From contig JAHDGU010000001.1 in NCBI GenBank assembly GCA_020627535.1, positions 476,670 through 540,669 on the forward strand: a stretch of 64,000 nucleotides of DNA. The letters are read 5' to 3'. The notes beneath the pieces are model-generated. The model had not been told where the DNA came from. It searched no databases and was given only the letters and a program-made list of their open reading frames with translations. Both the position numbers and the translations under genes were made by a program. The DNA is from Saprospiraceae bacterium. Lineage in GTDB: Bacteria > Bacteroidota > Bacteroidia > Chitinophagales > Saprospiraceae. Position 1 is the stretch's first letter; the number at the start of each line of letters is the position of its first letter. Positions 4,148 through 60,721 of this stretch are shown here, one piece after another.

Positions 4148-5454
4148 AGACCAAGAGGCAACCGAAAAAAGTGAATGTCATTACGCTAGGCTGTAGCAAG
4201 AACCTGGTCGACTCCGAAAATCTAATGACACAGTTGAGCGGCAATCATTTTGAGGTAAGTCATGAGAGCACCCAGGCACAAGATGAGGTCGTGATCATCA
4301 ATACCTGCGGATTTATCGATCGTGCCAAAGAAGAATCAGTCAACACGATCTTGGAGTACAGTCAGCGCAAGACAGATGGACTTGTGTCAGAGCTTTATGT
4401 GATGGGATGTCTCAGTGAGAGGTATAAGCATGATCTTGTGACAGAGATCCCAGAGGTCGATGGTTACTTTGGTACACAAGACTTACCAGCTATTCTTAGT
4501 CGACTCGGCGGAGAATATCAGCATGAGCTGCTAGGCGAGAGACAGACCACGACCGCCAGTCACTTTGCCTATCTCAAGATTGCTGAGGGCTGTAATCGGA
4601 CATGTTCCTTCTGTGCTATACCTCTCATGCGAGGGAAACATCGCAGTCAATCCATAGAAGACTTGGTTTCGCAAGCCCAACATCACGCGCGCAATGGGGT
4701 GAAAGAATTGATTCTCATCAGTCAAGAACTCACGTACTATGGTCTTGACCTTTACAAGAAAAGAGCGCTCAGTGAGTTGCTCTATCAATTGGCAGATGTT
4801 GACGGTATTGAATGGATCAGACTCCACTATGCATATCCGTCGAAGTTTCCCCGAGATATCCTTACGGCAATGAAAGTGCTACCGACGGTATGCAACTATC
4901 TCGATATGCCCTTACAGCATATCAGCGATCCTGTACTTCGAGCCATGCGTAGACAGATCACGCGGAGCGAGACAGAAGATCTCATCAAATATGCTAAGGA
5001 CACAGTGCCCAATCTTTGTCTGCGCACCACCATGCTCGTGGGCCACCCAGGCGAGACCAATAGAGATTTTGATGAACTCTGTGAGTTCGTAGGGCAAGGA
5101 CACTTTGATAGACTCGGCGTATTTGAGTACAGCCATGAAGAAAATACTTCTGCACATCAGATGGAAGATGATGTGCCGCCGAGTCTCAAAAGCTTGAGAG
5201 CCAACACGCTCATGGATATTCAGCGAGAGATTTCCTTGCAAAAAAATGAGCGACTTGTTGGTCAGACCATGAAGGTTTTGGTAGAATCTCATGAAGGTGA
5301 GTACTACAGAGCTCGGACGGAGTACGACAGCCCAGAGGTGGACAATGAAGTATGGATCAAAGCCGAGTACTTGAGACTTGGAGATTTTGTAGATGTCGAG
5401 ATCACCGAGGCGACTGAGTATGATCTCTACGCTGTCGCGAAAATGGATGGCTAA
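4144..5454 (+). CDS. rimO: Ribosomal protein uS12 methylthiotransferase RimO
   Basis: Radical-SAM enzyme that adds a methylthio group to an aspartate of ribosomal protein S12. The 436-residue protein has the N-terminal UPF0004 domain with its own cluster cysteines (GCSKN, NTCGF, MGCLSE), then the radical-SAM triad CNRTCSFC (about residues 150-157) followed by IPLMRGKHRS, and a C-terminal TRAM RNA-binding domain. Six cluster cysteines and the short IPLMRG form favour RimO over MiaB. The start is GTG, overlapping the stop of the gene before it, and the protein begins with a basic stretch before the first conserved strand VNVITLGCSKN. Confidence 0.95.
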
Positions 5455-25809: not shown

Positions 25810-26730
25810 CTACTCCTGTACTATATGCTCCATGCTTGAAACACTGGCAATATTGAAGTGTCCAAGGATTCGCTCACCAAGCTCATCATTGCCCAAATCC
25901 CTGAAGATATTTCCCTCTGTATTGATCAGAGGTAGGGCAAAAATGCCATTGAAACTATTGAGCAATTGGTCCTGGATTGTCCCCATATACGTAAAGCCAT
26001 CAAGAGACATGGAATGGAGTTCTACACGGATGGTATCACCTGGATCATATGGGCTAGGCACTTCTTCATCCATCTCTACAGGATCAGGAATCGGATTGAT
26101 GTTTTGTCGGATAGGAGGTATGAAGATCAGGCCATCAGTATTTCCGCTCTGATCAAAGCCTGCATCCAGAGCAAGATTGATTTCTTCTGGCTTGTTGAGA
26201 TAGACATTATTCTTAAATGTTTTGATCCAATATGCGTCCGTACGTCCTGCAATATCTCTTGCAAAAAACTCAGCATTGTAGCCTTCATCGTACTGGATAT
26301 CTTCCTGTCTGAATTGGGACTCAATGCGATCGATCTCTGGGACTGGATTGATCTCTGCAAGTGCAATATACTCGAGACCATCTACGGTTACTCGCAGGGC
26401 AAAGCCATCTCCTGGCTCTCCTAGACTTGGCCGATCATCAGGGCGCCATACATAGTTGCCATCTGCTTCATAGCTGAAGTCAAAGACCTCTAAGTCATCT
26501 CTAATCAGCAAAACCTGCGCATTTTCTTCACCGCGGAGTGGCTCTGCTTCAAAGTAAGGTTGAGACCAAATAACTCTGATGGTCTGAGCTTGATCTCTGT
26601 CGTCTACCCATGCATCGACGACAAGTAGAGGCTCGGCTTCCGCCAAAGTGACATCAATAGGGTCCTCACATGCGCTGAGGCCAAGTATAAGTGTAGCCAG
26701 GCAAAGTATGTGTTGATATCTTGTGTGCAT
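25810..26730 (-). CDS. DUF4249 family lipoprotein, partner of the adjacent TonB receptor
   Basis: A 306-residue predicted outer-membrane lipoprotein. The signal peptide ends with a good lipobox (LGLSAC, Cys about residue 21). The mature part starts with the DUF4249 pattern PLLVVDAWV and has alternating strands throughout. DUF4249 proteins typically follow a TonB-dependent receptor, as here with a one-base gap, and may help ligand capture in a SusD-like way; that role is inference. The ligand is unknown. Confidence 0.85.
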   Translation of the reverse strand: MHTRYQHILCLATLILGLSACEDPIDVTLAEAEPLLVVDAWVDDRDQAQTIRVIWSQPYFEAEPLRGEENAQVLLIRDDLEVFDFSYEADGNYVWRPDDRPSLGEPGDGFALRVTVDGLEYIALAEINPVPEIDRIESQFRQEDIQYDEGYNAEFFARDIAGRTDAYWIKTFKNNVYLNKPEEINLALDAGFDQSGNTDGLIFIPPIRQNINPIPDPVEMDEEVPSPYDPGDTIRVELHSMSLDGFTYMGTIQDQLLNSFNGIFALPLINTEGNIFRDLGNDELGERILGHFNIASVSSMEHIVQE

Positions 26731-26731
26731 C

Positions 26732-29095
26732 TTATTTGAATTTGAAATTGTAGGAAACTGAAGGAATGAAGTTGCCTATGACGGAAAGCCGAGTGGCTTG
26801 GGTGATGGTATTTGCACCTGGTTGAACTCGATCTCTTTCCTGACCAAAATAAATCGTGAATGGGTTTCGTCGGCTGTAGATATTGTAAATACCAAATACC
26901 CATTCACCATCCCATCTTTTTTCTTCATGCTTCTTCCCCTTGATGGTGACAGAAGCATCCAGTCGATGATAGACTGGAATTCTCACATTGTTTCTCATGT
27001 CCTCGGCATTATGCGGAATGACATATCCCTGAAACTCAAATCTTGATGTGGGAAAGGTGGCCGGAGTTCCACTGATCAGAGTAAAATTGGCACTTGCTGA
27101 TACCCGATCATTGAAGGCATAGATACCCGTCAAGCTGAGATTGTGAGTCTGATCAAATCGAGATGGATACCAGTTGCCCTGATTGATGCCCTCTATGAGT
27201 CGCTCTGATCGGGATAGGGTGTAGCTGACCCATCCGGTCAGATCACCTTTCTTCTTCTCAAGCATGACCTCCCATCCGTACGCACGACCGTCTCCGCTGA
27301 CGACCTGTGATTCTAGCTGTGGATTGAGGATAAGGTCTGCTTCATCGATATAGTCGATGAGATCATCGTATTCCTTGTAGTAGAGCTCAGTGGTCAGCTC
27401 ATAGGTATTGTTCTTGAAGTTGCGGAAATATCCGAGAGCGACCTGATTGGCCATTTGAGGCTTGATATTGTTGGTGGAGGGCGTCCAGACATCTACCGGC
27501 GTACTCGCTGTGGTATTGGAGAGTAGATGTATGTACTGAGCCATACGATTGTAGCTCGCTTTGAGGGATGAGGTTTCGTTGAGCTGATACTTGATGGAGA
27601 ACCTTGGCTCAAAATTGCTGTAGTTAGCGATAGACTCTCCACTACCCACTCTTTCTACGTCTATGATAGGTCTCTCTTCACCAGCCGCTGGTGCTTCTCC
27701 GAGGATGTAACGATCACCAGCTCCCAGATAGTCAAACCGACTCCAGCGCAAGCCATAGTTCAGTTTGATCTTGCTTGAGATGTCTTGTTCATTCTCGACA
27801 TACACCGATGTCTCAAGAGCAAATTTCTTTTCGACAGAGAAGTCTGTCACTTCACCTTCGCTGACGCCCACTGCATTTCCAGGCTCAAAATCATAAAAGA
27901 TGCCTTGTGCGCCAAAGCGAAGTTGATTTTGGGGATTGAGGAAGTAATTGAAATCCAGCTTGGTGGAGAGATTCTCTATCTGAGCATCCCAGTCAAACTT
28001 GTTGGCAGCATCGTCACCGAAGTTGATCTTGTAATCATAGTCGCTATAGAAGAAAGTCAGATTGCTAAATAGTTTCTCACCAAAGACATGATTCCATCTC
28101 ATGCTCGCCGTACTATTTCCCCAGTTGAATCCTGCAGCTGCACCAAATCCAAAATTGTCTCTGCCAAAGTATCCAGAGGCGTAGATTCTATTATTGTCGT
28201 TGATGGTATAATTGGTCTTGAGAGTAAGATCATAGAAGTTGAGCACATTGTCATCACCTTCAAGAAATGGTCCAGCGAGGACATCGATGTATGAGCGTCT
28301 CGCGGCAGCAACAAAGGACATCTTGTCCTTAATGATGGGCGCCTCGACACTTAATCTGCTAAAAATCAAGCCAACACCACCATTGATCTCCAATTGTCGG
28401 GCATTACCTTCCTTCATACGTACATCAAGAATCGATGATAGTCGACCGCCGTATCTCGCAGGGATTCCACCCTTGTAGAGTTTGACGTCTTTTACTGCAT
28501 CGGGATTGAACACGGAGAAGAATCCAAAGAGGTGCGAAGAATTGTAGACAGGTGCCTCGTCAAGTAGTACGAGATTTTGATCGATAGATCCTCCACGCAC
28601 ATTGAAACCTGTAGCACCTTCTCCGACAGAAGTTACACCTGGCAGCAGCTGTATGCTTCTGATAATTTCTACTTCACCAAGAAGGGATGGGAGACTCTTG
28701 ATCTTATTGATGTCAAGCTTATTGACAGACATCTCTATGTCCTTGACATTTTGGTCTTCGGCTTCTGCCAAGACGACGACTTCTTCTATTTGTGTAGACG
28801 CTAGGGAGAGTTCTACGTCTAGCTTGGTATTTTCCGAGAGCTCGAGCTTTTTGACGACAGTCTCAAATCCCAAATAGGAAAACTCGACTTCATATTCTCC
28901 GGGGTCTAAGCTGATGCTGTAAAAGCCATATTCATTACTCGAAGCACCGATAGCATCAGCATAAATGTAGGCTGTAGCACCGATGAGAGTTTCTGCACTC
29001 GAGGCATCTTTAATGTAGCCTGATAGCGTGACCTTTTGGCCAAAGGACGATATTGAAATGATCGTGGCCAAAAGCAGCAAGAGAGATTTTTGCAT
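26732..29095 (-). CDS. TonB-dependent receptor with carboxypeptidase-regulatory-like N-terminal domain
   Basis: A 787-residue outer-membrane transporter. After the signal peptide (ending SSFGQ) comes a CarboxypepD_reg-like domain (VTLSGYIKDASSAETLIGAT, to about residue 105), a plug domain (SIQLLPGVTSVGEGATGFNVRGG, about 148-170, then YKGGIPARYGGRLSSILDVR), and a 22-strand-type barrel ending YNFKFK. It is transcribed together with the DUF4249 lipoprotein. This receptor/lipoprotein pairing is typical of Bacteroidota uptake systems for peptides or metal ligands, but the substrate cannot be told here. Confidence 0.92.
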   Translation of the reverse strand: MQKSLLLLLATIISISSFGQKVTLSGYIKDASSAETLIGATAYIYADAIGASSNEYGFYSISLDPGEYEVEFSYLGFETVVKKLELSENTKLDVELSLASTQIEEVVVLAEAEDQNVKDIEMSVNKLDINKIKSLPSLLGEVEIIRSIQLLPGVTSVGEGATGFNVRGGSIDQNLVLLDEAPVYNSSHLFGFFSVFNPDAVKDVKLYKGGIPARYGGRLSSILDVRMKEGNARQLEINGGVGLIFSRLSVEAPIIKDKMSFVAAARRSYIDVLAGPFLEGDDNVLNFYDLTLKTNYTINDNNRIYASGYFGRDNFGFGAAAGFNWGNSTASMRWNHVFGEKLFSNLTFFYSDYDYKINFGDDAANKFDWDAQIENLSTKLDFNYFLNPQNQLRFGAQGIFYDFEPGNAVGVSEGEVTDFSVEKKFALETSVYVENEQDISSKIKLNYGLRWSRFDYLGAGDRYILGEAPAAGEERPIIDVERVGSGESIANYSNFEPRFSIKYQLNETSSLKASYNRMAQYIHLLSNTTASTPVDVWTPSTNNIKPQMANQVALGYFRNFKNNTYELTTELYYKEYDDLIDYIDEADLILNPQLESQVVSGDGRAYGWEVMLEKKKGDLTGWVSYTLSRSERLIEGINQGNWYPSRFDQTHNLSLTGIYAFNDRVSASANFTLISGTPATFPTSRFEFQGYVIPHNAEDMRNNVRIPVYHRLDASVTIKGKKHEEKRWDGEWVFGIYNIYSRRNPFTIYFGQERDRVQPGANTITQATRLSVIGNFIPSVSYNFKFK

Positions 29096-29228: not shown

Positions 29229-29924
29229 ATGGATAAGCGAGTTACTAGTGCGAAAGAAGCCATAGCAGGAATCAGTAGTGGAATGACGCTGATGCTTGGT
29301 GGTTTTGGCTTGTGTGGTATACCAGAGAATTGCATTCGGGCTCTTCAGCAGAGCGAGGTGACCGATCTCACCTGCATCTCCAATAATGCAGGGGTTGACG
29401 ACTTTGGGCTTGGCCTATTGCTGCAAAGAAAGCAGATCAAGAAAATGATCTCTAGCTACGTCGGAGAGAATGATGAGTTTGAAAGGCAAATGCTTTCGGG
29501 GGAGCTCGAGGTGGATCTTATTCCTCAAGGTACTCTTGCTGCGAGATGCTATGCGGCTGGAGCCGGGATGCCGGCATTTTATACGCCTGCTGGATATGGC
29601 ACGGAGGTGGCAGAAGGCAAAGAAGTGCGGTGGTTTGATGGTAAGCCACATCTCATGGAACATGCCTTTGAGGCGGACTATGCGATCGTCAAAGCTTGGA
29701 AAGGTGATCATGCCGGCAATCTCATTTTCAAAGGCACAGCACGCAATTTCAATCCACTCATGGCGATGGCGGGAAGAATCACCATTGCTGAGGTTGAGGA
29801 ACTCGTAGAGCCCGGCGCACTAGATCCGAATCATATTCATACAGCGGGAATTTTTGTGCAGAGGATATTCCAAGGGACAGATTACGAAAAGCGTATAGAA
29901 CAAAGGACCGTGACCAACAAGTAG
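29229..29924 (+). CDS. scoA: 3-oxoacid (succinyl-CoA:acetoacetate) CoA-transferase subunit A
   Basis: Alpha subunit of a CoA-transferase, which moves CoA between succinyl-CoA and acetoacetate or a related acid. The family signature GGFGLCGIPENCI appears at about residues 23-35, followed by SNNAGVDDFGLGLLL and the C-terminal EVEELVEPGALDPNHIHT. The 231-residue length is normal for subunit A. The catalytic glutamate lies in subunit B, which is not beside this gene: the neighbours on both sides are on the opposite strand. The enzyme needs a subunit B encoded elsewhere. Confidence 0.92.
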   Translation: MDKRVTSAKEAIAGISSGMTLMLGGFGLCGIPENCIRALQQSEVTDLTCISNNAGVDDFGLGLLLQRKQIKKMISSYVGENDEFERQMLSGELEVDLIPQGTLAARCYAAGAGMPAFYTPAGYGTEVAEGKEVRWFDGKPHLMEHAFEADYAIVKAWKGDHAGNLIFKGTARNFNPLMAMAGRITIAEVEELVEPGALDPNHIHTAGIFVQRIFQGTDYEKRIEQRTVTNK

Positions 29925-29959: not shown

Positions 29960-32317
29960 TCAGTCTCTCTCTTCGCTGATTTGCCCTTCGTTATCGTTTT
30001 GAGAACCCAACATTGCTTTGATTTCTTCCAAGTCAGACTTGATTGAGCTCATTTCTTTGCGGTATGTATGATTCTCTTCTTGCAATTCTTGAACTGCAGC
30101 GATCAAGAGAGGAATCAGCTCCATATAGTTGACTGACTTAAGAGCCTCTTCAGTATCTGCCGTGCTTACTAGGGCTGGAAGTATTTTCTCAAGCTCTTGT
30201 GCAATGAGGCCCATCTTTTGCCCTTCTGCCAATCGCATATCACTAAACTCGTCTGTACGGAACTCGTAGCTCACTGCGCGTAGCTGTGCAATCAGCGATG
30301 ATGCATTTTGAATGGTGGAGATGTTTTTCTTAAGTCGCTGATCGGATGCAGCTGTTAATTCTCCAGTTACGTCTAGATCTCCATCTACTTGCATGTCATA
30401 TGCTGGAGAATTTGTGCCTACACCTACTTTGCCAGCGTCAAAGTATATGTCCGCCCCATTTTCACTCCACTTGCTACCAGCTGGCAGGACAGCAAAGCCG
30501 CCGCCTGTAAGGTACAATGTGTCATTGGAGACACTCAGGACTTGAATCTCATTCGTCGGGTCATTGTCGGCATCATTGACGTCATCACCATCAGCGAGAT
30601 CTGTAGGGACATCTGCCAAGTCATTCCAGCTTCCGCTAAAATCATCTGTAGAGTCCGTATCAATATTGGCAGGAATACCTGCTAGGGTAGCCCACGTCTC
30701 AATTTCATTCGTCGGGTCATTGTCCGCATCATTGACGTCGTCACCATCGGCTAGATCTGCCGGGACATCTGTCAAGTCATTCCAGCTTCCGCTAAAATCA
30801 TCAGTAGCATCGGTATCCAGATTGGCAGGAACATCCGTCAGGTCATTCCAACTCCCGCTAAAGTCATCCGTAGAGTCGGTATCAATATTGACCGGGATAC
30901 CAGCGAGGGTCGCCCAAGTCTCAATCTCATTGGTCGGATCATTGTCGGCATCATTGACGTCATCCCCATCAGCGAGATCTGCCGGGACATCTGTCAAGTC
31001 ATTCCAGCTTCCGCTAAAATCATCAGTAGCATCGGTATCCAGATTGGCAGGAACATCCGTCAGGTCATTCCAACTCCCGCTAAAGTCATCCGTAGAGTCG
31101 GTATCAATATTGACCGGGATACCAGCGAGGGTCGCCCAAGTCTCAATCTCATTGGTCGGATCATTGTCGGCATCATTGACGTCATCCCCATCAGCGAGAT
31201 CTGCCGGGACATCTGTCAAGTCATTCCAGCTTCCGCTAAAATCATCAGTAGCATCGGTATCCAGATTGGCAGGAACATCCGTCAGGTCATTCCAACTCCC
31301 GCTAAAGTCATCCGTAGAGTCGGTATCAATATTGACCGGGATACCAGCGAGGGTCGCCCAAGTCTCAATCTCATTGGTCGGATCATTGTCGGCATCATTG
31401 ACGTCATCCCCATCAGCGAGATCTGCCGGGACATCTGTCAAGTCATTCCAGCTTCCAGAGAAGTCATCTGTAGCATCGGTATCCAGATTGGCAGGAACAT
31501 CCGTCAGGTCATTCCAACTCCCGCTAAAGTCATCCGTAGAGTCGGTATCAATATTGACCGGGATACCAGCGAGGGTCGCCCAAGTCTCAATCTCATTGGT
31601 CGGATCATTGTCGGCATCATTGACGTCATCCCCATCAGCGAGATCTGCCGGGACATCTGTCAAGTCATTCCAGCTTCCAGAGAAGTCATCAGTAGCATCG
31701 GTATCCAGATTGGTAGGAACATCCGTCAGGTCATTCCAACTCCCGCTAAAGTCATCTGTAGAGTCGGTATCAATATTGACTGGGATACCGGCGAGGGTCG
31801 CCCAAGTCTCAATTTCATTGGTCGGATCATTGTCGGCATCATTGACGTCATCCCCATCAGCGAGATCTGCCGGGACATCTGTCAAGTCATTCCAGCTTCC
31901 GCTAAAATCATCAGTAGCATCGGTATCCAGATTGGCAGGAACATCCGTCAGGTCATTCCAACTCCCGCTAAAGTCATCTGTAGAGTCGGTGTCAATATTG
32001 ACTGGGATACCGGCGAGGGTCGCCCAAGTTTCAATTTCATTGGTCGGATCATTGTCCGCATCTGCGGTATCGGTGAGCGAGATCCATGCTGAACCGTCGT
32101 ATCCTTCAAAATCCGCACCGTTCCATCTGATGGATCCGGCATGCAAAAAATTGGTGTTGGCAAGTCTGATTGCACCGTTGACGTCAAGTCTTTGCAATGC
32201 AGTATCTCGATCAAGTCCGGTCATACCGTTAGAAAAGACCCGAAGTGGCGCGTTTTGGGCGATGCTTAATCCGAGTGAAAAAGCAAATAAGGCAAGTGTA
32301 ATTCCAAATCTTTGCAT
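29960..32317 (-). CDS. Secreted tandem-repeat protein with C-terminal S74 endosialidase-type chaperone
   Basis: A 785-residue exported protein. It has a signal peptide (ITLALFAFSLGLSIAQ), an N-terminal region ending YDGSAWISLTDTA, six 74-residue repeats plus a shortened seventh, then a tail with SDQRLKKNI (about residue 655) and MGLIAQELEKILP, which are signatures of the Peptidase_S74 intramolecular chaperone, and a final coiled coil. In phage tail spikes this chaperone helps trimer formation and then cuts itself off. In Bacteroidota such proteins are common as predicted surface fibres. The repeats are acidic (DADNDPTNEIE, DTDSTDDFSGSWND), possibly binding calcium. A trimeric surface fibre is the likely role (inference). 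Confidence 0.85.
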   Translation of the reverse strand: MQRFGITLALFAFSLGLSIAQNAPLRVFSNGMTGLDRDTALQRLDVNGAIRLANTNFLHAGSIRWNGADFEGYDGSAWISLTDTADADNDPTNEIETWATLAGIPVNIDTDSTDDFSGSWNDLTDVPANLDTDATDDFSGSWNDLTDVPADLADGDDVNDADNDPTNEIETWATLAGIPVNIDTDSTDDFSGSWNDLTDVPTNLDTDATDDFSGSWNDLTDVPADLADGDDVNDADNDPTNEIETWATLAGIPVNIDTDSTDDFSGSWNDLTDVPANLDTDATDDFSGSWNDLTDVPADLADGDDVNDADNDPTNEIETWATLAGIPVNIDTDSTDDFSGSWNDLTDVPANLDTDATDDFSGSWNDLTDVPADLADGDDVNDADNDPTNEIETWATLAGIPVNIDTDSTDDFSGSWNDLTDVPANLDTDATDDFSGSWNDLTDVPADLADGDDVNDADNDPTNEIETWATLAGIPVNIDTDSTDDFSGSWNDLTDVPANLDTDATDDFSGSWNDLTDVPADLADGDDVNDADNDPTNEIETWATLAGIPANIDTDSTDDFSGSWNDLADVPTDLADGDDVNDADNDPTNEIQVLSVSNDTLYLTGGGFAVLPAGSKWSENGADIYFDAGKVGVGTNSPAYDMQVDGDLDVTGELTAASDQRLKKNISTIQNASSLIAQLRAVSYEFRTDEFSDMRLAEGQKMGLIAQELEKILPALVSTADTEEALKSVNYMELIPLLIAAVQELQEENHTYRKEMSSIKSDLEEIKAMLGSQNDNEGQISEERD
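30575..32062 (-). repeat. 222-base tandem repeat array, six full copies plus one 156-base copy
   Basis: Within the S74-chaperone gene, a 222-base (74-codon) unit repeats with very few differences; spacing was checked on the anchor TGACCGGGAT at 30889 and 31111. Each unit contains two 22-residue inner repeats (core FSGSWNDLTDVP). The last copy, nearest the C-terminus, is exactly 66 bases shorter, having lost one inner repeat. Because the unit is a multiple of three, copy-number change would keep the frame. Confidence 0.95.
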
Positions 32318-32411
32318 GCTATATTGGTTTTGCGGATGAAGTTAAGACGAGATCAGCTATTGCTTAAAGCAAAATTTGGCAATATGCTACTATCTGTTAT
32401 AGATTAGACCC

Positions 32412-34283: not shown

Positions 34284-35465
34284 CTAAAACCCCTTTTTGA
34301 GTTGCACTCTCGCAAGACCTTCATGAAAGTCCCTCGCTTCAAAATACTTGGTACTGAAGGCATGATTACCCGCTGTGTCAATGTAGCTGATACCTGCTCG
34401 ATTGATCACACGAGCAAGACCTTCACTGTAATCCCACGCTAGCGGATAGAGCGGAGGCTCGACATATTCACCATTTGTATCGATCAGTCCCCAGGCATCA
34501 CCTTGTGCTGCTGTCGCTCGTTTCTCGTTGAATCTTCCTAGCATATCAAATGATCGATCTGAAATCCTCTTTCCGTCATTATCATGTAGGTAGAGTTTTT
34601 GATCTTGATGAATGATCCACATTCCTTCACCTCCTGCTCTGACACGATCTGCATCAATAGATGCTACGTCAGATAGATTTTCATCAATGAGCTTCCATGT
34701 CTTGCCATCATACACTGCTGCCCTGTCCCCTTGGAATCCGGTAGCTTTCCTGAAGGGCTCGGAGATAGTCGCGGACTTGATGTCGTAGAAGTATTTGTTT
34801 CCTGATTTGCTCAAAAGATACTTTCCCGATGCCGCTTGCTGTATCCGGTCGTACTCAAAAGGCACTAAGTTTTCACCTTGGAGATCTATGATCCCATAGC
34901 CAGTGATCATTTTGGCGAAAGCCGTAGAAGAGACAACATCTCCCAGTGCTAGATAGCGTGGTGCTAGTACTTCCGTTCCGTCCATCTTGCTCAGGCCGTA
35001 AACCGATTCCTGTCTTGTTCGCAGGATGGATTCTCTTGGCTGATATGGCTCCAGAGTCTCAGATTGCCATATCATCTTGCCTTGTTTGTCAATCAGGGCA
35101 TAGCTGTCATCAAATCGTCGAACTTTTGCTGTCCCATCGACAAAATCCCATGCTGACCGATACTCTGGCGCTATCGCGAAATCTCCAGATTTGTCAATAT
35201 ATCCCCATTTGCCAGACTGATTGGCGACTGCCAATCCATCAGAAAAGTCTCGGCAATCATCATAGGATCCCGAGATGACCAATTTCCCCGATCTGTCGAG
35301 GTAACCCCATTTGTGCTTTGGTTTTTGATAATCCTCGAAGTAGGCTTGCTCACTGGTGATGGGATCACCAGTCTCAAGCTGACTATTTTCCTTCTGACAA
35401 GACGTACAGAGTAGGAGAACTATCACAATTCGGCAAGCTATGATATAAAATCGCGTTAAGGACAT
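34284..35465 (-). CDS. WG-repeat lipoprotein
   Basis: A 393-residue predicted lipoprotein. The signal peptide ends LLLCTSCQKEN, a lipobox with Cys near residue 23. The body is made of WG repeats of about 45-50 residues, each with a WGYxDxxG core: WGYLDRSGKLVI, WGYIDKSGDFAI, YALIDKQGKMIW, YGIIDLQGENLV, WGLIDTNGEYVE and ISYIDTAGNHAF. The repeat is thought to form a beta-propeller-like or solenoid surface; its function is not known. The frame extends to a TTG at 35471, but ATG at 35465 is the better start. Confidence 0.85.
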   Translation of the reverse strand: MSLTRFYIIACRIVIVLLLCTSCQKENSQLETGDPITSEQAYFEDYQKPKHKWGYLDRSGKLVISGSYDDCRDFSDGLAVANQSGKWGYIDKSGDFAIAPEYRSAWDFVDGTAKVRRFDDSYALIDKQGKMIWQSETLEPYQPRESILRTRQESVYGLSKMDGTEVLAPRYLALGDVVSSTAFAKMITGYGIIDLQGENLVPFEYDRIQQAASGKYLLSKSGNKYFYDIKSATISEPFRKATGFQGDRAAVYDGKTWKLIDENLSDVASIDADRVRAGGEGMWIIHQDQKLYLHDNDGKRISDRSFDMLGRFNEKRATAAQGDAWGLIDTNGEYVEPPLYPLAWDYSEGLARVINRAGISYIDTAGNHAFSTKYFEARDFHEGLARVQLKKGF

Positions 35466-35506
35466 ATGCAATTGCTAGATCTGATGGCAAAGTTGGTTTA
35501 GTTTGT

Positions 35507-54480: not shown

Positions 54481-56928
54481 ATGAGAAAAACGATACTATC
54501 CTTAAGCCTTCTTCTTTTGACAGCCAGCCTTACTTGGGGGCAGTCATTCAAGGCTTTTATGGAGGCTGCATCAGAAGCTGCTGATGGTAACAACCACTTC
54601 GCGGCGATGACATATTATGACTACGCACTTCAGTTTGATGACGAAAATCTCGATGTGAGATATAAACTTGCGGAAGCTGCGAGAGGTCTCAATGCTCATA
54701 CTGAAGCCATAGCGCAGTACGAGTACATCCTGGAGAACGATGCTGATGGTCAGTATTCTGATGCGATGTATCACCTAGCTAGAAGCTACCAGCAAAAAGG
54801 TGAGTACAATACTGCCAAGGAATACTATCAGCAATACATCAGCCAGTATTCTGGAGATAATGCTTACTACACTGCCAGAGCTCAGAAAGAAATAGATGCT
54901 TGTGACTGGTCAATGAGCAGCACCATGGATCGCTCGGATGAGTTTAATCTAATGCATCTTGACAACAATATCAATACGCCATACTCTGAGTTTGGTGCTG
55001 TACAGCAAGGAGATGAGCTCTTTTACTCTTCACTACAGTTTGCAGAAGAAACAGATGGCATAAGACGCAAGTCACTCCAACCAAATAAGAACATCTCCAA
55101 AGTCCTCAAGAGTGACAATGGAAGATCTGGAGAACTCATTGAAGGGGACTTCAATAGTGATGATATGCTTACGGCGCACAATGCTTTCAATGCTGACGGT
55201 AGTATGGTTTACTATACTATCTGTGAATACATCAATGCTGATGACATTCGTTGTGACCTGTACGTCCGTTCTGTAGGAGAGGATGGAAGTTTTGGTTCTG
55301 CCAGTAAGCTTCCGGATTATATTAATGTATCTGGTACTACCTCCACGCAGCCTAATGTCGGATCACTCAATGGAGACGAGGTACTCTACTTTGTATCCGA
55401 TCGAGACGGAGGTAAAGGAAAATTGGACATCTGGTATACCACGATCAATAATGGTCAGTACTCTCAGCCACAGAATCTTTCTGGCATCAATACCTCAGAA
55501 GATGACATCACTCCATTTTACAACAGAGAAGAGAATAATCTCTACTTCTCATCTGAAGGATACATAGGTCACGGAGGTTTTGATGTGTACGAGTCTAAGT
55601 ATCGAGGTGGTTCCTTTGAGAGTCCCGAGAATATGGGTACTCCTGTCAATAGCAGCTACAACGACATCTACTTCAACATTAATCCTGAAACAAACAAGGG
55701 ACATCTAAGTAGTAATAGAATAGGTTCTCAGTTTCTTGAAGAAAGCAAAGAGGCATGTTGCTATGATGTATATGCATTTGACTACACACCTCTCAAAGTA
55801 AGATTGATAGTGCATACACTTGACAAGATCAGTCTTGACTCCCTACCGGGCACCAATGTTAAGTTGATTAATGTGGCCGACGGAGAAGAAGCCGCACAGC
55901 TACAATATGATCCTGTCACTAGCACGTACTACTTTGAGGTAGAACGTGGCAATGACTACATCGTCAGAGCAGAAAAAGATGGTTACACATCCGATGAAGC
56001 CGCTTTCAATACCAATGATATCAAGGCAGGAGAGGACATCGTCAAGAAGCTCTACCTGGAATCAGACGAAATCGAGCTTACAGTGCTCACTTTCAACGAA
56101 GAGACCAAGGCCGAGTTGAATAAGGTTACTGTTGATTTGATCTGTACTATGAACGGAAAGTCAGATACCATCAGACGTGTTAACCTATTTGGCAATAGCA
56201 ATAAGTATACGATCAAGCGTGGAGCAGAGTATGTGATCATTGGAAATCGTCCAGGATTCCGTACTGCAGTTACAACATTGACTGCAGAAGAATTGGCAAA
56301 TGTTCAAGGATCCATCACCAAGGAGCTTTTCCTCGGTCTCAACGATCTCAATGGAATGCTGCCGATAGTCGTCTACTTTGATAATGACTATCCGGATCCA
56401 GATGTATGGTCATACAGCACCAACAAGCGCTACAGTGAGACATATCCTCCATACTATGCCAAGAAACAGGAGTTTATGACGCAGTACAGCGCACCTCTGT
56501 CAGGCAATGCTCGCCTTGATGCATCCAACAAGGTTGCCAATTTCTTCGAAGAAGAAGTCAGAGTAGGAAATGATGATTTGAATCTATTCTTGAAGCTGCT
56601 TCGTGTAGAGCTCAATAAAGGAAAAGACATTGATGTCTATCTCTCTGGTTTTACGAGTCCGAGGTATACCTCTGCATATAACTACAGACTGGGTACTAGA
56701 AGGATCAGATCTGTAAGAAACGAGCTTAGAGAATTCTCTGGCGGTATCTACCAGGACTTTTTCGATAGTAAGCAATTAGAAGTGAAGCTTAAGTCATTTG
56801 GCGAAAGCGAGGCACCAGAAGGTATCATCTCTGATCTTCAAGATGAGAGAAACTCCATCTACAGTGTAGAGGCTTCTCGTGAAAGACGTACAGAGATCTC
56901 TGAAGTACGCATCAATCAAGACAATTAA
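54481..56928 (+). CDS. TPR / PD40 / OmpA-like envelope protein of the PorP operon
   Basis: An 815-residue exported protein. Signal peptide (SLLLLTASLTWGQ), then TPR-type helical repeats (about residues 35-140: AMTYYDYALQF, AIAQYEYILEND, AKEYYQQYISQY), then PD40/WD40-like propeller strands (YFVSDRDGGKGKLDIWYT, LYFSSEGYIGHGGFDVYES), carboxypeptidase-like sandwiches, and a C-terminal OmpA-like domain (VVYFDNDYPDP to VRNELREF). The peptidoglycan-binding motif of classical OmpA (GHTD) reads SGFTSPR, so the usual Asp is replaced, and a long insert separates the first strand. It probably anchors the PorP-adhesin complex to the cell wall. Confidence 0.85.
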   Translation: MRKTILSLSLLLLTASLTWGQSFKAFMEAASEAADGNNHFAAMTYYDYALQFDDENLDVRYKLAEAARGLNAHTEAIAQYEYILENDADGQYSDAMYHLARSYQQKGEYNTAKEYYQQYISQYSGDNAYYTARAQKEIDACDWSMSSTMDRSDEFNLMHLDNNINTPYSEFGAVQQGDELFYSSLQFAEETDGIRRKSLQPNKNISKVLKSDNGRSGELIEGDFNSDDMLTAHNAFNADGSMVYYTICEYINADDIRCDLYVRSVGEDGSFGSASKLPDYINVSGTTSTQPNVGSLNGDEVLYFVSDRDGGKGKLDIWYTTINNGQYSQPQNLSGINTSEDDITPFYNREENNLYFSSEGYIGHGGFDVYESKYRGGSFESPENMGTPVNSSYNDIYFNINPETNKGHLSSNRIGSQFLEESKEACCYDVYAFDYTPLKVRLIVHTLDKISLDSLPGTNVKLINVADGEEAAQLQYDPVTSTYYFEVERGNDYIVRAEKDGYTSDEAAFNTNDIKAGEDIVKKLYLESDEIELTVLTFNEETKAELNKVTVDLICTMNGKSDTIRRVNLFGNSNKYTIKRGAEYVIIGNRPGFRTAVTTLTAEELANVQGSITKELFLGLNDLNGMLPIVVYFDNDYPDPDVWSYSTNKRYSETYPPYYAKKQEFMTQYSAPLSGNARLDASNKVANFFEEEVRVGNDDLNLFLKLLRVELNKGKDIDVYLSGFTSPRYTSAYNYRLGTRRIRSVRNELREFSGGIYQDFFDSKQLEVKLKSFGESEAPEGIISDLQDERNSIYSVEASRERRTEISEVRINQDN

Positions 56929-56950
56929 AACATTGCAAATTATTTTTGGT

Positions 56951-59900
56951 ATGTCATATCCAAATCTCAATAAGAATTACATCACGAGAGGAATTAGTAA
57001 AGCCTTCTTTGCTGTACTCGTCACTCTCGGATGCTTGTATCCTGATACCCTCAGTGCCACTCACATCGTGGGTGGAGATCTCTCGTATAGAGCACTCGGC
57101 GGTGATGCGTATGAGCTTACTCTCCGGATCCGCAGAGACTGTGAAAATGCCGCTGAAGAAGCTGATTTTGACGATCCCGCGATCATCGGAATTTTCGATA
57201 AAGAAGGGAACTGGCTTTTTAACTACGGTTTCGGTGGACAGTTCCTTCTGGACTTTCAGGGAGCCACTGTGATCGAGGATGAGCTCGCTAGTGAGTGTCT
57301 GCTTGCGCAAGGAGAACTTTGTGTCGAAGAAGCAATATACACCGATACAATCTGGATCCCTATCCAAGATGAAGGTTACATCTTCGCTTATCAGAGATGC
57401 TGTCGTAATATCTTGCTGAACAACATTGTGGATCCATTGAATACCGGTGTGATCTACAAGACTTGTATCGAGCCTGAGTCCATGGATGGTGGCAATAAAT
57501 CAGCACAGTTTTCCCAGCACACTCCTCTGTATGTCTGTATCAATGAGCCATGGGTATTTGACCATAGTGCAACTGACGAGGATGGTGATGACCTGGTATA
57601 CTCATTGTACACGCCGTTTCAGTCTGGTACAGCAGATGATCCGATCCCGACGCCTCCATTTGGTAATCCGCTGGATCGAGAAGTAGAGTGGTTGTCACCG
57701 ACTTACAGCGAAACAAATATGCTTGGTGGCTCCAGTCCATTGACCATAGACCCCAATACTGGTATCTTGACAGCAACTCCTGAGATTACTGGGGTCTTCT
57801 TGATTGGTGTCAAAGTGGAAGAATTTCGTAATGGTGAATTGATCAATACTGTCTATAGAGATATGGAGATTGACATCAGAGCATGTGGCGATATTCCCAC
57901 TGCAAGCTTTGAGGTAGAGACCTATAACTGTGATGGATTTGATGTGACATTTGACAATACTTCAGAGGGAGCTAACTTTTACAACTGGATATTTGACTTT
58001 CCAGAAGGAACAATTACCTCCAATCTTGAAGAGCCTGGAACCATTACATTTCCTGGGCCTGGTGCTTACACCGTTCTTCTTCAGGCATTTGCTGATGACA
58101 GTTGTAGAGCTGAAGCAGTGCAAGTGATATTCGTCAATGACTTTGATGCCGTACCAGATTTTTCCAGTGAAGTCGAGTCTTGTGAAGAAGAGATTGTGAT
58201 CACACTGAATGATGAGAGCACTGGTGATATAGAGAGTTATGAATGGTTGGTTGAAACAGCAGATAGCACAATATCTGGAGAAGGAGATCCATTCACTTTT
58301 GTGCTCGAAGAATCTGCACTAGCAACCGTAACGCTTTTTGTCTATGATTCTATCGGTTGTAGACAATCAATCACAAAAGAGATTCAATACAATCGCCTCA
58401 ATCTTGAGTTTAATATTGAAAATGAGGGTGATACGCTTCGTGCATGTTTGGATGAGCCGACACAACTCTTGCTTAATGGTAACCCAGATTGGGATTACAC
58501 GTGGTCTCCAGAAGACGGCCTAGATGATCCTAATTCACACAATCCGCTTGCCACTCCGCAAGAGAATACAACTTACAGTGTAACGGTTACAGACGGTCTC
58601 TGCGAGGTCACTGGATCTGTAGATGTATTCGTCGTGATAGAGGAAGGAAGTATCGAAGCTGTCATAGAAAGCATAGACTGTGAGGGCAATGCTGTATTGA
58701 CCAGTACCAATAGTGAAGGAGCAGACGTAGAATGGTCAGATGAAGCTGACTTCAGCAATATCATTGGGAACACTGAGACAATCAGTGTAACTGTAGACGA
58801 GATTGAAGACTTCTATGTGAGAATTGTTGATGGCGTCTTTGAGTGTATTGATGTCATTGATACGATCACAGTAGAAAATCCAGATGTAGATCCTGACATC
58901 AATATAGATTTAGATAATTCAGGTACTGTTGGCGGTGGCTCTGGTGATTCAGAAGATGATAGAGCTATTGTATGCAGAGGTGAGACTCTGACTCTGGTAC
59001 TAGAAGGTGACCTCAGCGGTGAAGATCTGACAATCGTATGGTCTCCAGAAGAGTGTATCCTTGAAGGTCAAGGTACGACATCAGTAATCATCGATACGGA
59101 CAATCCTGAATGTACTGATTTCTCTGTCTCTGTTGTCAATGAGTTTGACTGTTCTGGTGAAACAGAGTTCTTCATTGAAATTGACACTACACCTAGCATA
59201 GCAGGAGATTTTGATTACCTGGTCTGTGGCGATGGTGACGTTGATTTTACAGTCGACAATCCAAGCGAGGTCGACGTCATGTGGGACTTCGGTGATGGAA
59301 ATATGTCTATGGAGCAAAACCCGTCTCACGAGTATGAAGAATCTGGGACTTACACAGTCATCGTTTCTTCAAAAGGACTCTGCGTAGGATCAGATACACT
59401 CACTGTAGATGTACTAGTAGTAGATGACATATCACCCAATGGCACCAGTGAAGTCGTGAACTGTAGCGCAGACAATATCATCCTCAATGAAGGTGGTGAT
59501 CCTGATCTTGACTATATGTGGTCTCCGGCAGAAAAGTTTGATGATCCGACTGCTCCTACACAGGAAATCAGTCCTGACAGTACTTGCCTCGTGACCGTAG
59601 TGATCACTGATCCCAACAATCCTTTCTGCGAGTTACTGGACACCGTCAATATCATAGTGCCTGAACGAATCGATCTAGAACTGACTACTGAGCAGCCTAT
59701 CAATAACTGTGAGCCAGAAGAAGAGATACTAGAAGTGACGACCAATATCACAGAAGGAGTGACCATAGAGTGGTTTGATGAAGATGGAAACTCTATCGGA
59801 ACAGGCAATAGTGTTAATGTGACTCCTGCGGATACAACTTGTTATACCGCCGTAGCTACGGATAGTCTAGGCTGTACCGAGGAAGTGGAAGTATGTGTGA

Positions 59901-60721
59901 ATGTCGTCGGACCTATGGAGACAAGAATCACAGTCTTTGATGATCCAAATGACCAAGGTCCAGATGATGCTTTCTGTCCAGACGAGGAAGGTATGATAGT
60001 CATTGAAGATATAGACGATGATCAAGACTTTACCTACATGTGGGGACCAGATGAGTGTATCGAAGATGGTACTGAGAATACCGACATGCCAATCATTTCA
60101 TCCCCAACCACTAAGACATACACGGTTACCATCACGGATCCTGTGAGTGGCTGTGAAGTCATCAGAGAGGTCACGATCGAGATTTCTGATCCGAGCTGTG
60201 ATATCGAAGCTGACATGGATACTGTCTTTATAGGAAATGGTGGCACGACGCTCAATAGTCTTTGTGGATCTGATAATATCACTGACTATGAGTGGACAGA
60301 TGAAAATGGTAATGTCATTGGTACTGGTGAGACAGTCGATGTCGACCCAATGGAAACGACCGTGTATACGTTGACGACTACAGATGAGAATGGATGTAGC
60401 TCGACGACCATGATCACCATTACAGTCATCCCTGCGATGTGCAACGAGAGTGACATATTTGTTCCTAATGCCTTCACTCCAGATGGTGATGGTAGAAATG
60501 ATGAACTCATTGTTCGCTCAGTATTTGTGGATGAGTTTTATTTCATCATCTACAATCGATGGGGTGAGCAGGTCTTTGAAAGCAGAGATATTAATGTTCA
60601 TTGGGATGGCACATTTGAAGGAGAGCTAGCTAGACCAGATGTATATGGCTGGTATCTGGAGGCTACTTGTTTTGGGGGATTGACCTACCAAGCACAAGGT
60701 AATGTGAGTGTATTGAGATAA
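56951..60721 (+). CDS. Large T9SS type B sorting-domain adhesin with PKD-like domains
   Basis: A 1256-residue exported protein. The signal segment (ISKAFFAVLVTLGCLYPDTLSA) is followed by THIVGGDLSYRALGGDAYELTL, a conserved start of CHU-type surface proteins, a cysteine-containing region and several PKD/Ig-like sandwiches (for example WDFGDGNMS with HEYEESGTYTVIV, and YMWSPAEKFDDP). The C-terminus is the gliding-motility CHU_C type B sorting domain (IFVPNAFTPDGDGRNDEL and YNRWGEQVFES). The architecture resembles SprB-type adhesins. The longer frame from 56879 overlaps the preceding gene; ATG at 56951 is preferred. Confidence 0.9.
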   Translation: MSYPNLNKNYITRGISKAFFAVLVTLGCLYPDTLSATHIVGGDLSYRALGGDAYELTLRIRRDCENAAEEADFDDPAIIGIFDKEGNWLFNYGFGGQFLLDFQGATVIEDELASECLLAQGELCVEEAIYTDTIWIPIQDEGYIFAYQRCCRNILLNNIVDPLNTGVIYKTCIEPESMDGGNKSAQFSQHTPLYVCINEPWVFDHSATDEDGDDLVYSLYTPFQSGTADDPIPTPPFGNPLDREVEWLSPTYSETNMLGGSSPLTIDPNTGILTATPEITGVFLIGVKVEEFRNGELINTVYRDMEIDIRACGDIPTASFEVETYNCDGFDVTFDNTSEGANFYNWIFDFPEGTITSNLEEPGTITFPGPGAYTVLLQAFADDSCRAEAVQVIFVNDFDAVPDFSSEVESCEEEIVITLNDESTGDIESYEWLVETADSTISGEGDPFTFVLEESALATVTLFVYDSIGCRQSITKEIQYNRLNLEFNIENEGDTLRACLDEPTQLLLNGNPDWDYTWSPEDGLDDPNSHNPLATPQENTTYSVTVTDGLCEVTGSVDVFVVIEEGSIEAVIESIDCEGNAVLTSTNSEGADVEWSDEADFSNIIGNTETISVTVDEIEDFYVRIVDGVFECIDVIDTITVENPDVDPDINIDLDNSGTVGGGSGDSEDDRAIVCRGETLTLVLEGDLSGEDLTIVWSPEECILEGQGTTSVIIDTDNPECTDFSVSVVNEFDCSGETEFFIEIDTTPSIAGDFDYLVCGDGDVDFTVDNPSEVDVMWDFGDGNMSMEQNPSHEYEESGTYTVIVSSKGLCVGSDTLTVDVLVVDDISPNGTSEVVNCSADNIILNEGGDPDLDYMWSPAEKFDDPTAPTQEISPDSTCLVTVVITDPNNPFCELLDTVNIIVPERIDLELTTEQPINNCEPEEEILEVTTNITEGVTIEWFDEDGNSIGTGNSVNVTPADTTCYTAVATDSLGCTEEVEVCVNVVGPMETRITVFDDPNDQGPDDAFCPDEEGMIVIEDIDDDQDFTYMWGPDECIEDGTENTDMPIISSPTTKTYTVTITDPVSGCEVIREVTIEISDPSCDIEADMDTVFIGNGGTTLNSLCGSDNITDYEWTDENGNVIGTGETVDVDPMETTVYTLTTTDENGCSSTTMITITVIPAMCNESDIFVPNAFTPDGDGRNDELIVRSVFVDEFYFIIYNRWGEQVFESRDINVHWDGTFEGELARPDVYGWYLEATCFGGLTYQAQGNVSVLR

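Follow-up and report, generated by a model that had tools for sequence, protein, structure and literature searches.

The window analysed here is a stretch of 64,000 nucleotides from a Saprospiraceae bacterium (contig JAHDGU010000001.1 of assembly GCA_020627535.1). Its minus strand carries a gene for a 785-residue protein in which an apparent signal peptide and a short N-terminal domain are followed by a tandem array of acidic repeats, a short beta region and a C-terminal Peptidase_S74 chaperone domain. The features and the means by which they were assigned are as follows.

29960..32317, minus strand: whole gene for the putative S74-ended fibre protein, 785 residues, stop codon counted (open reading frame and Pfam)
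32255..32317, minus strand: apparent Sec signal peptide, about residues 1–21, ending ...LSIAQ (by eye from the translation)
32063..32254, minus strand: short N-terminal domain, about 64 residues, carrying GSIRWNGADFEGYDGSAW (translation and sequence search)
30575..32062, minus strand: repeat array, 496 residues, 6 x 74 + 1 x 52 (Tandem Repeats Finder and in-frame units)
31841..32062, minus strand: full unit 1, N-terminal (unit alignment)
31619..31840, minus strand: full unit 2, with the sole amino-acid change among the full units, A to T
31397..31618, minus strand: full unit 3 (unit alignment)
31175..31396, minus strand: full unit 4, same as unit 5 (unit alignment)
30953..31174, minus strand: full unit 5, same as unit 4 (unit alignment)
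30731..30952, minus strand: full unit 6 (unit alignment)
30575..30730, minus strand: short unit 7, 52 residues, most diverged copy (unit alignment)
30404..30427, minus strand: VGVGTNSP loop preceding the chaperone, pairing with VGVGTTAP of the Bdellovibrio chain 8ojn (PDB sequence alignment)
30326..30346, minus strand: SDQRLKK, with Ser658 and Lys663 paired with MyRF S587 and K592 (alignment)
29963..30346, minus strand: Peptidase_S74 chaperone domain and C-terminal helix, a single long helix in the model (Pfam, AlphaFold2, Foldseek)

Stretches resembling the N-terminal domain, with GSIRWNGADFEGYDGSAW, are present elsewhere in the same genome. Opposite the array, a plus-strand open frame of 591 residues (30564–32339) was taken as an echo of the repeat and has no support as a gene. 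A promoter and terminator scan found no terminator-like sites; of seven promoter-like sites, five fall within the array on its plus strand, and these sites were given no weight.

Structure and divergence of the repeat array

Tandem Repeats Finder reported a period of 222, 6.6 copies and 96% matches at 30605–32062 (score 2587), and the in-frame array occupies exactly 30575–32062, with six units of 222 nt and one of 156 nt. A tandem array of this kind is far beyond chance. The two methods confirm the near-identical 222-base repeats, six full and one short, that the initial annotation had described, and the unit lengths of 74 and 52 residues agree with its statement that the short unit is smaller by exactly one 22-residue sub-repeat. 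The 52-residue unit lies at the C-terminal (low-coordinate) edge of the array. The six full units differ pairwise at 0–14 of 222 bases (93.7–100% alike), units 4 and 5 being identical in DNA, and the longest exact tandem repeat in the array is 482 nt at a shift of 222. In the table of variable sites unit 2 is a mosaic, with left-hand markers common to unit 1 and right-hand markers common to unit 3, which fits tandem duplication or conversion.

Eighteen sites vary among the full units, of which 17 are silent and one changes an amino acid. So strong a bias towards silent change shows that selection acts on the repeat protein, and the near-identity of the units reflects selection plus copying. 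Under a model in which changes are spread evenly, with about 174 non-silent sites of 222, the chance of at most one amino-acid change comes to about 7e-11 with 18 changes and to 1.3e-09 with 16. A single Ser codon swapped for another Ser codon accounts for three of the silent sites. In pairwise comparison dN between units was at most 0.0175 and dS reached 0.275; dN exceeds zero where Ser codons differ because the codon path runs via other residues. Since dS is this high while the protein is kept, several units have had time for silent divergence. A second gene of this genome, L053, has related repeats, the nearest of which is 71.8–73.7% identical in DNA to the full units minus the extra sub-repeat; the short unit is 88.5–90.4% identical to them. 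The full units are thus far more alike than they are to the L053 repeat, so that homogenisation or expansion took place within this gene. To this extent the earlier claim of recent expansion or gene conversion stands; the silent divergence indicates that the copies are not all very recent.

The short unit is the most diverged: with a 66-nt gap placed optimally, it differs at 16–19 of 156 bases from the six full units, and it is therefore not a fresh deletion product. Its Trp motifs are spaced by 22 and 30 residues, compared with 22, 22 and 30 in the full units, 22, 30 and 30 in L053, and 30 and 22 in L050, a gene of the other genome of the genus. The 22/30 spacings of the short unit, L053 and L050 make us lean to the 52-residue (22+30) layout as the older one, in which case the 74-residue unit may be derived and the short unit would not be a truncated full unit. 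Alternatively, the edge unit may long ago have undergone a deletion between two of its sub-repeats, because the sub-repeat of the short unit is mixed and resembles both types (7–12 differences to A-type and 11–13 to S-type sub-repeats). If the 52-residue layout came first, such a unit perhaps gained an extra 22-residue sub-repeat to give 74 residues, and in-frame amplification would have followed. Whole units could be gained or lost through unequal recombination with the reading frame intact, so that the length of the stalk could change; that its copy number may vary between strains is a reasonable idea.

The unit count could in principle be an artefact of assembly, by collapse or false expansion. 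Single short reads cannot span the exact 482-nt tandem repeat, and exact repeats in 14 other loci (L045 and L055 being one contig) reach 101 nt at most. Moreover, arrays or array edges lie at contig ends or 100-N gaps in L049, L050, L055 and L070; in L050 the 100-N gap falls within the related array and the flanking 55-nt words recur in the array, as expected of an assembly halted by the repeat. However, units 1, 2, 3, 6 and 7 have markers of their own, so that only units 4 and 5 are indistinguishable, and the frame is unbroken through the whole array. We consider an artefactual count unlikely. A 16S search of the genome gave no match, but five of 14 control genomes were also silent and the result says little on the assembly.

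The S74 chaperone domain and its relatives

The chaperone domain was assessed with profile, sequence and structure searches. Peptidase_S74 was matched in Pfam at 53.1 bits (cut-off 22) and at 58.1 bits in the genome-wide search, for which one of 14 named control genomes, that of E. coli, was also matched. A single-sequence search of the PDB returned 6f45 (phage long tail fibre, 1.1e-10), 7dc3 (MyRF, 9.8e-09) and 8jov (tail fibre), whereas the Bdellovibrio fibre chains 8ojn (E 0.17) and 8ol4 (E 0.31) were not significant. With a 27-row profile the best match was 7dc3 (3.7e-21), and 8ond (Bd2133, 2.9e-08), 8ojn (4.5e-05), 8hqz and 3gud were matched as well. Most of the best PHROGs matches of the fibre protein were tail families. 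In an AlphaFold2 model of the C-terminal 256 residues the S74 part was mostly above a pLDDT of 90 and nearly all of the first 60 residues were below 50; residues 202–255 of this single-chain model form a single long helix, mostly at high confidence. Foldseek against the PDB gave three matches at E ≤0.001, all to chains of 7dc3 (best 4.4e-07), and weak matches to 3gw6 (E 0.013) and 3gud (E 0.014), whose large rmsd perhaps comes from modelling the chain outside its trimer; against viral models there were 399 matches at E ≤0.001. By sequence criteria, membership of the S74 family is firm. The Pfam score, the PDB matches, the intact Ser-Lys motif and Foldseek agree on the fusion to an endosialidase-type S74 chaperone that had been proposed, and homology lends support to the trimeric fibre proposed with it.

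The SDxxxK cutting motif is intact (S658 and K663). S, D, K and G are invariant across 27 aligned S74 sequences, made up of the window's own and 26 of 35 S74 segments; the nine omitted are a duplicate of the window, the second copy of L031 and seven others. The pattern used to find the segments demanded K or R at the Lys position but allowed any residue in place of the Ser; all 35, the window's own counted, have Ser at the cutting position. The conserved Gly (of GLIAQE) is present, invariant in the 27 rows and aligned to the Gly of MyRF; counted along the MyRF alignment, it is equivalent to G956 of K1F. MyRF (7dc3) has the same S, D, R and K positions, with Ala for Ser in the crystallised chain, but it is a eukaryotic membrane-bound transcription factor and only the S74 domain and a piece of stalk are common to it and the fibre. 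For MyRF, S587A and K592A are reported as wholly uncut (PMC8326128), and D579A and G626A, in other numbering, as markedly reduced in processing (PMC3742443). By analogy, a cut would be expected just before Ser658.

The nearest bacterial relatives of known behaviour are the S74-ended MAT fibres of Bdellovibrio. Those of Bdellovibrio bacteriovorus, as described for Bd3182 in passages of PMC10769870, are likewise chromosomal and have a signal peptide and the SDxxxK motif. The same source reports self-cutting for Bd3182 and places the MAT fibres on the surface of the predator, the surface element that they bind being described as not yet identified (PMC10769870). The stretch preceding the S74 domain is alike, reading VGVGTNSP here and VGVGTTAP in the Bd3182 chain 8ojn; it aligns with VGVGTTAPTSAL of 8ojn, and the capping-loop feature of MAT fibres is thus present. 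As we read it, VGVGTTAPTSAL fits the length and ends of the capping loop printed for Bd3182 (R656–H669), although the match to the printed consensus is not letter for letter. There are 10 S74 matches over the cut-off in this genome (G000) and five in its sister genome (G001), compared with 13 S74 MATs given for Bdellovibrio (PMC10769870), and the repertoires thus appear similar in size. In contrast to the MAT fibres, the stalk here consists of near-identical acidic tandem units. Furthermore, the beta-rich N-terminal domain of the MAT fibres has about 130 residues and only about 64 are found here between the signal peptide and the array; the fibre is not filed as a MAT because such a domain cannot fit by length.

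The phage tail-fibre and endosialidase chaperones (6f45, 8jov, 8hqz, 3gud and 3gw6) have the S74 domain and the cutting motif in common with the fibre, but the gene described here, judged from the neighbours scanned, lies outside a phage cluster, its product would be exported and its stalk is different. Another comparison is offered by length-variable trimeric adhesins such as Bartonella adhesin A, which has a trimeric stalk built of repeats, autotransporter anchoring and a sequence unrelated to that of the fibre. This surface adhesin is described as having been compared across isolates by long reads (PMC8859334); the likeness is noted and membership is not claimed.

The acidic stalk and its distribution

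The array contains 127 Asp and 14 Glu (141 acidic residues of 496, or 28%), whereas Lys, Arg and His are absent from it. Three frames of the window, the fibre protein included, share the lowest computed pI (4.05), against a median of 5.55; the values cover 41 of the 51 frames, overlapping ones omitted, and 4.05 seems to be the lowest value that the method can give, which leaves these three unranked. The stalk motif W..L..[IV]P recurs at spacings of 22, 22 and 30, with the Asp-rich loops DADNDPTNE and DTDxTDDFSG between. We take DADNDPTNE merely to resemble DxDxDGxxD, and Pfam (E ≤0.1) showed no calcium-binding repeat family (RTX or thrombospondin type 3); that the acidic loops depend on calcium is our guess.

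The AlphaFold2 model of the repeats did not reach a confident fold (mean pLDDT 39, and the short unit below 50 in the C-terminal model), as would be expected either from a disordered chain or from a fold that forms in the trimer alone. Three repeat units searched against PDB sequences matched nothing at E up to 1, and matches of the repeat profile to ankyrin designs in the PDB (E 0.086 and worse) were rejected. DUF4283 (Pfam, 35.7 bits, cut-off 27.2) and a transaldolase (NCBIfam, far below cut-off) both rest on the repeats with no single stretch passing, and were set aside as repeat noise. The array could thus be a flexible, largely unstructured polyacidic linker, with the S74 part trimerising the end only. 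Such a linker would agree with the 28% of acidic residues, the lack of basic ones and the low model confidence across the repeats. However, the modules of other genera retain regularly spaced Trp, Leu, Ile and Pro residues (19 invariant columns in 10 rows, hand-picked for having the module), and the purifying selection on the units would be unusual in a mere linker; on balance we find this account doubtful. For a stalk, rough length scaling from Bd3182, whose fold may differ, would give about 44–52 Å for a unit and 300–350 Å for the array. The full length of Bd3182 is given as modelled at 550 Å, for 782–922 residues (PMC10769870).

The 30–31-residue module W..L..IP..IADGDDV.DADxDPTNE was found at E ≤1e-6 in 17 of 398 genomes of the same family, its own included, and in one of 296 genomes sampled across the phylum, again its own; at least five genomes of the family in that phylum sample had no repeat match. 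The whole fibre protein was matched in 104 of 150 family genomes at E 0.001, mostly via its S74 end. The module is joined to varied partners, S74 in this gene and a weak Lcl_C-like stretch in L053 (26.8 bits, cut-off 34.9). Pattern searches of genome contigs gave 21 stretches, of which one was confirmed, a Cyclobacteriaceae MAG with related DADxDP motifs. Other near-identical arrays, with a 105-nt period and the sequence DADADATNEIQDISTDATAGNITLSDGSTLTLNV and variants, were seen in L055 and L082 (genomes G010 and G304), that of L055 running to the contig end. Among viral contigs one of 34 pattern matches was confirmed, namely L097 (IMGVR_UViG_3300000976_000028), where a 719-residue frame at 3–2162 has a DxDPTNEIETWSTLxGIP module and a GTIRYDGNQFQGHDG stretch resembling the N-terminal domain of the fibre. 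PHROGs gave no phage support among the neighbours in L097, despite a phage-like gene layout, and the link of the stalk module to phages through this contig is suggestive. The literature searched gave no match for four motif strings. Among the S74 papers listed, no title dealt with such fibres except in Bdellovibrio, and two concerned injection systems; for endosialidase chaperones together with Bacteroidetes the literature searched returned a single paper, on jumbo phages.

Genomic neighbourhood and proposed role

An alternative is that the protein is a tail fibre, belonging to a chromosomal prophage or an extracellular contractile injection system. Domains of the S74 type are characteristic of tail fibres in phages, to which the PHROGs matches also point. 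Among 50,697 phage records 736 gave a match at E 1e-5, with identity always under 60% and never more than 80% of the query covered, and viral contig L097 has the same stalk module. S74 fibres are also described in injection systems, one of them from Microscilla marina (PMC12923769). The surroundings of the gene argue against a prophage. Among 11 neighbours scanned between 21.7 and 39.6 kb, Pfam assigned a family to ten and none to one, with no phage structural family; the ten are AAA ATPase, ABC ATPase, DUF4249, TonB receptor, CoA transferase, GNAT, pyridine-nucleotide oxidoreductase, WG repeats, decarboxylase and right-handed beta helix. PHROGs searches on ten nearby proteins returned acetyltransferases and families of unknown function, none phage structural. 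In addition, the N terminus of the fibre has an apparent signal peptide, which is not known from phage fibres, and synteny at the locus extends to the other genome of the genus. Taken together, we regard an origin in a prophage or injection system as very improbable.

The CoA-transferase family protein (29229–29924, plus strand, 231 residues) has no second CoA-transferase subunit in either adjacent gene. On the minus strand, a DUF4249 protein and a TonB receptor lie side by side at 25810–29095, and a WG-repeat protein, with five repeats that pass individually (Pfam E 1.2e-43), lies at 34284–35471.

In the sister genome the CoA transferase is matched at 84% identity at G001:C310:3755-4441 and is adjoined on the opposite strand by an S74 gene at 4437–5006, in synteny with the window. 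Beside this S74 gene, frames of 303 and 798 residues, similar in length and order to the DUF4249 protein and TonB receptor, suggest wider synteny. The contig stops at 5006, at the array edge and reading DADPTNEIQ, and because of this break the copy number is not comparable between the two genomes. A dehydrogenase match (83%) starts a separate contig, C29, from base 3; the GNAT gene has only a 33% match, elsewhere in G001, and the N-terminal part of the fibre had no match in G001 at E up to 10.

Searches of the fibre protein with Pfam and NCBIfam detected neither a type IX sorting domain nor another sorting signal for crossing the outer membrane. Elsewhere in the window, an acidic protein of 1280 residues (56879–60721, plus strand) has PKD, Ig-like and CHU_C type IX secretion domains; its type B sorting match, at 34.7 bits, falls just under the cut-off of 35. 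The CHU_C and type IX domains, like the TonB receptor, point to Bacteroidota.

Overall, the gene probably encodes an exported, S74-ended trimeric fibre that cuts off its own chaperone and carries an amplified acidic stalk; here we infer the trimer, the cut, the surface location and the order of the array events. The S74 domain and the long C-terminal helix would gather three chains, and the S74 domain would help the preceding beta region, with its VGVGTxxP loop, to fold. After folding, the chain would be cut just before Ser658 and the chaperone released, leaving a mature fibre of about residues 22–657 in which a short N-terminal base is followed by the acidic stalk of 496 residues and then by a small beta tip. 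Judged by homology, the fibre would work like an S74 MAT or phage fibre; adhesion as its role is a guess. More tentatively, and with rather low confidence, it may represent a Bacteroidota-type family of chromosomal fibres with one interchangeable acidic stalk module that is traded with phages, varied by recombination under the S74 domain, stiffened by calcium and adjustable in length, the diversity being hidden by breaks in short-read assemblies.

If the reading as an exported fibre is right, there would be a blind spot in that the lengths of such arrays are missing from databases, because several arrays or array edges sit at contig ends or gaps in other assemblies. It would also add a repeat module for which neither a named family nor a confident fold was found here, and it would widen the range of self-cutting S74 fibres, known from phages and Bdellovibrio, to include a bacterium whose genome has ten S74 matches.
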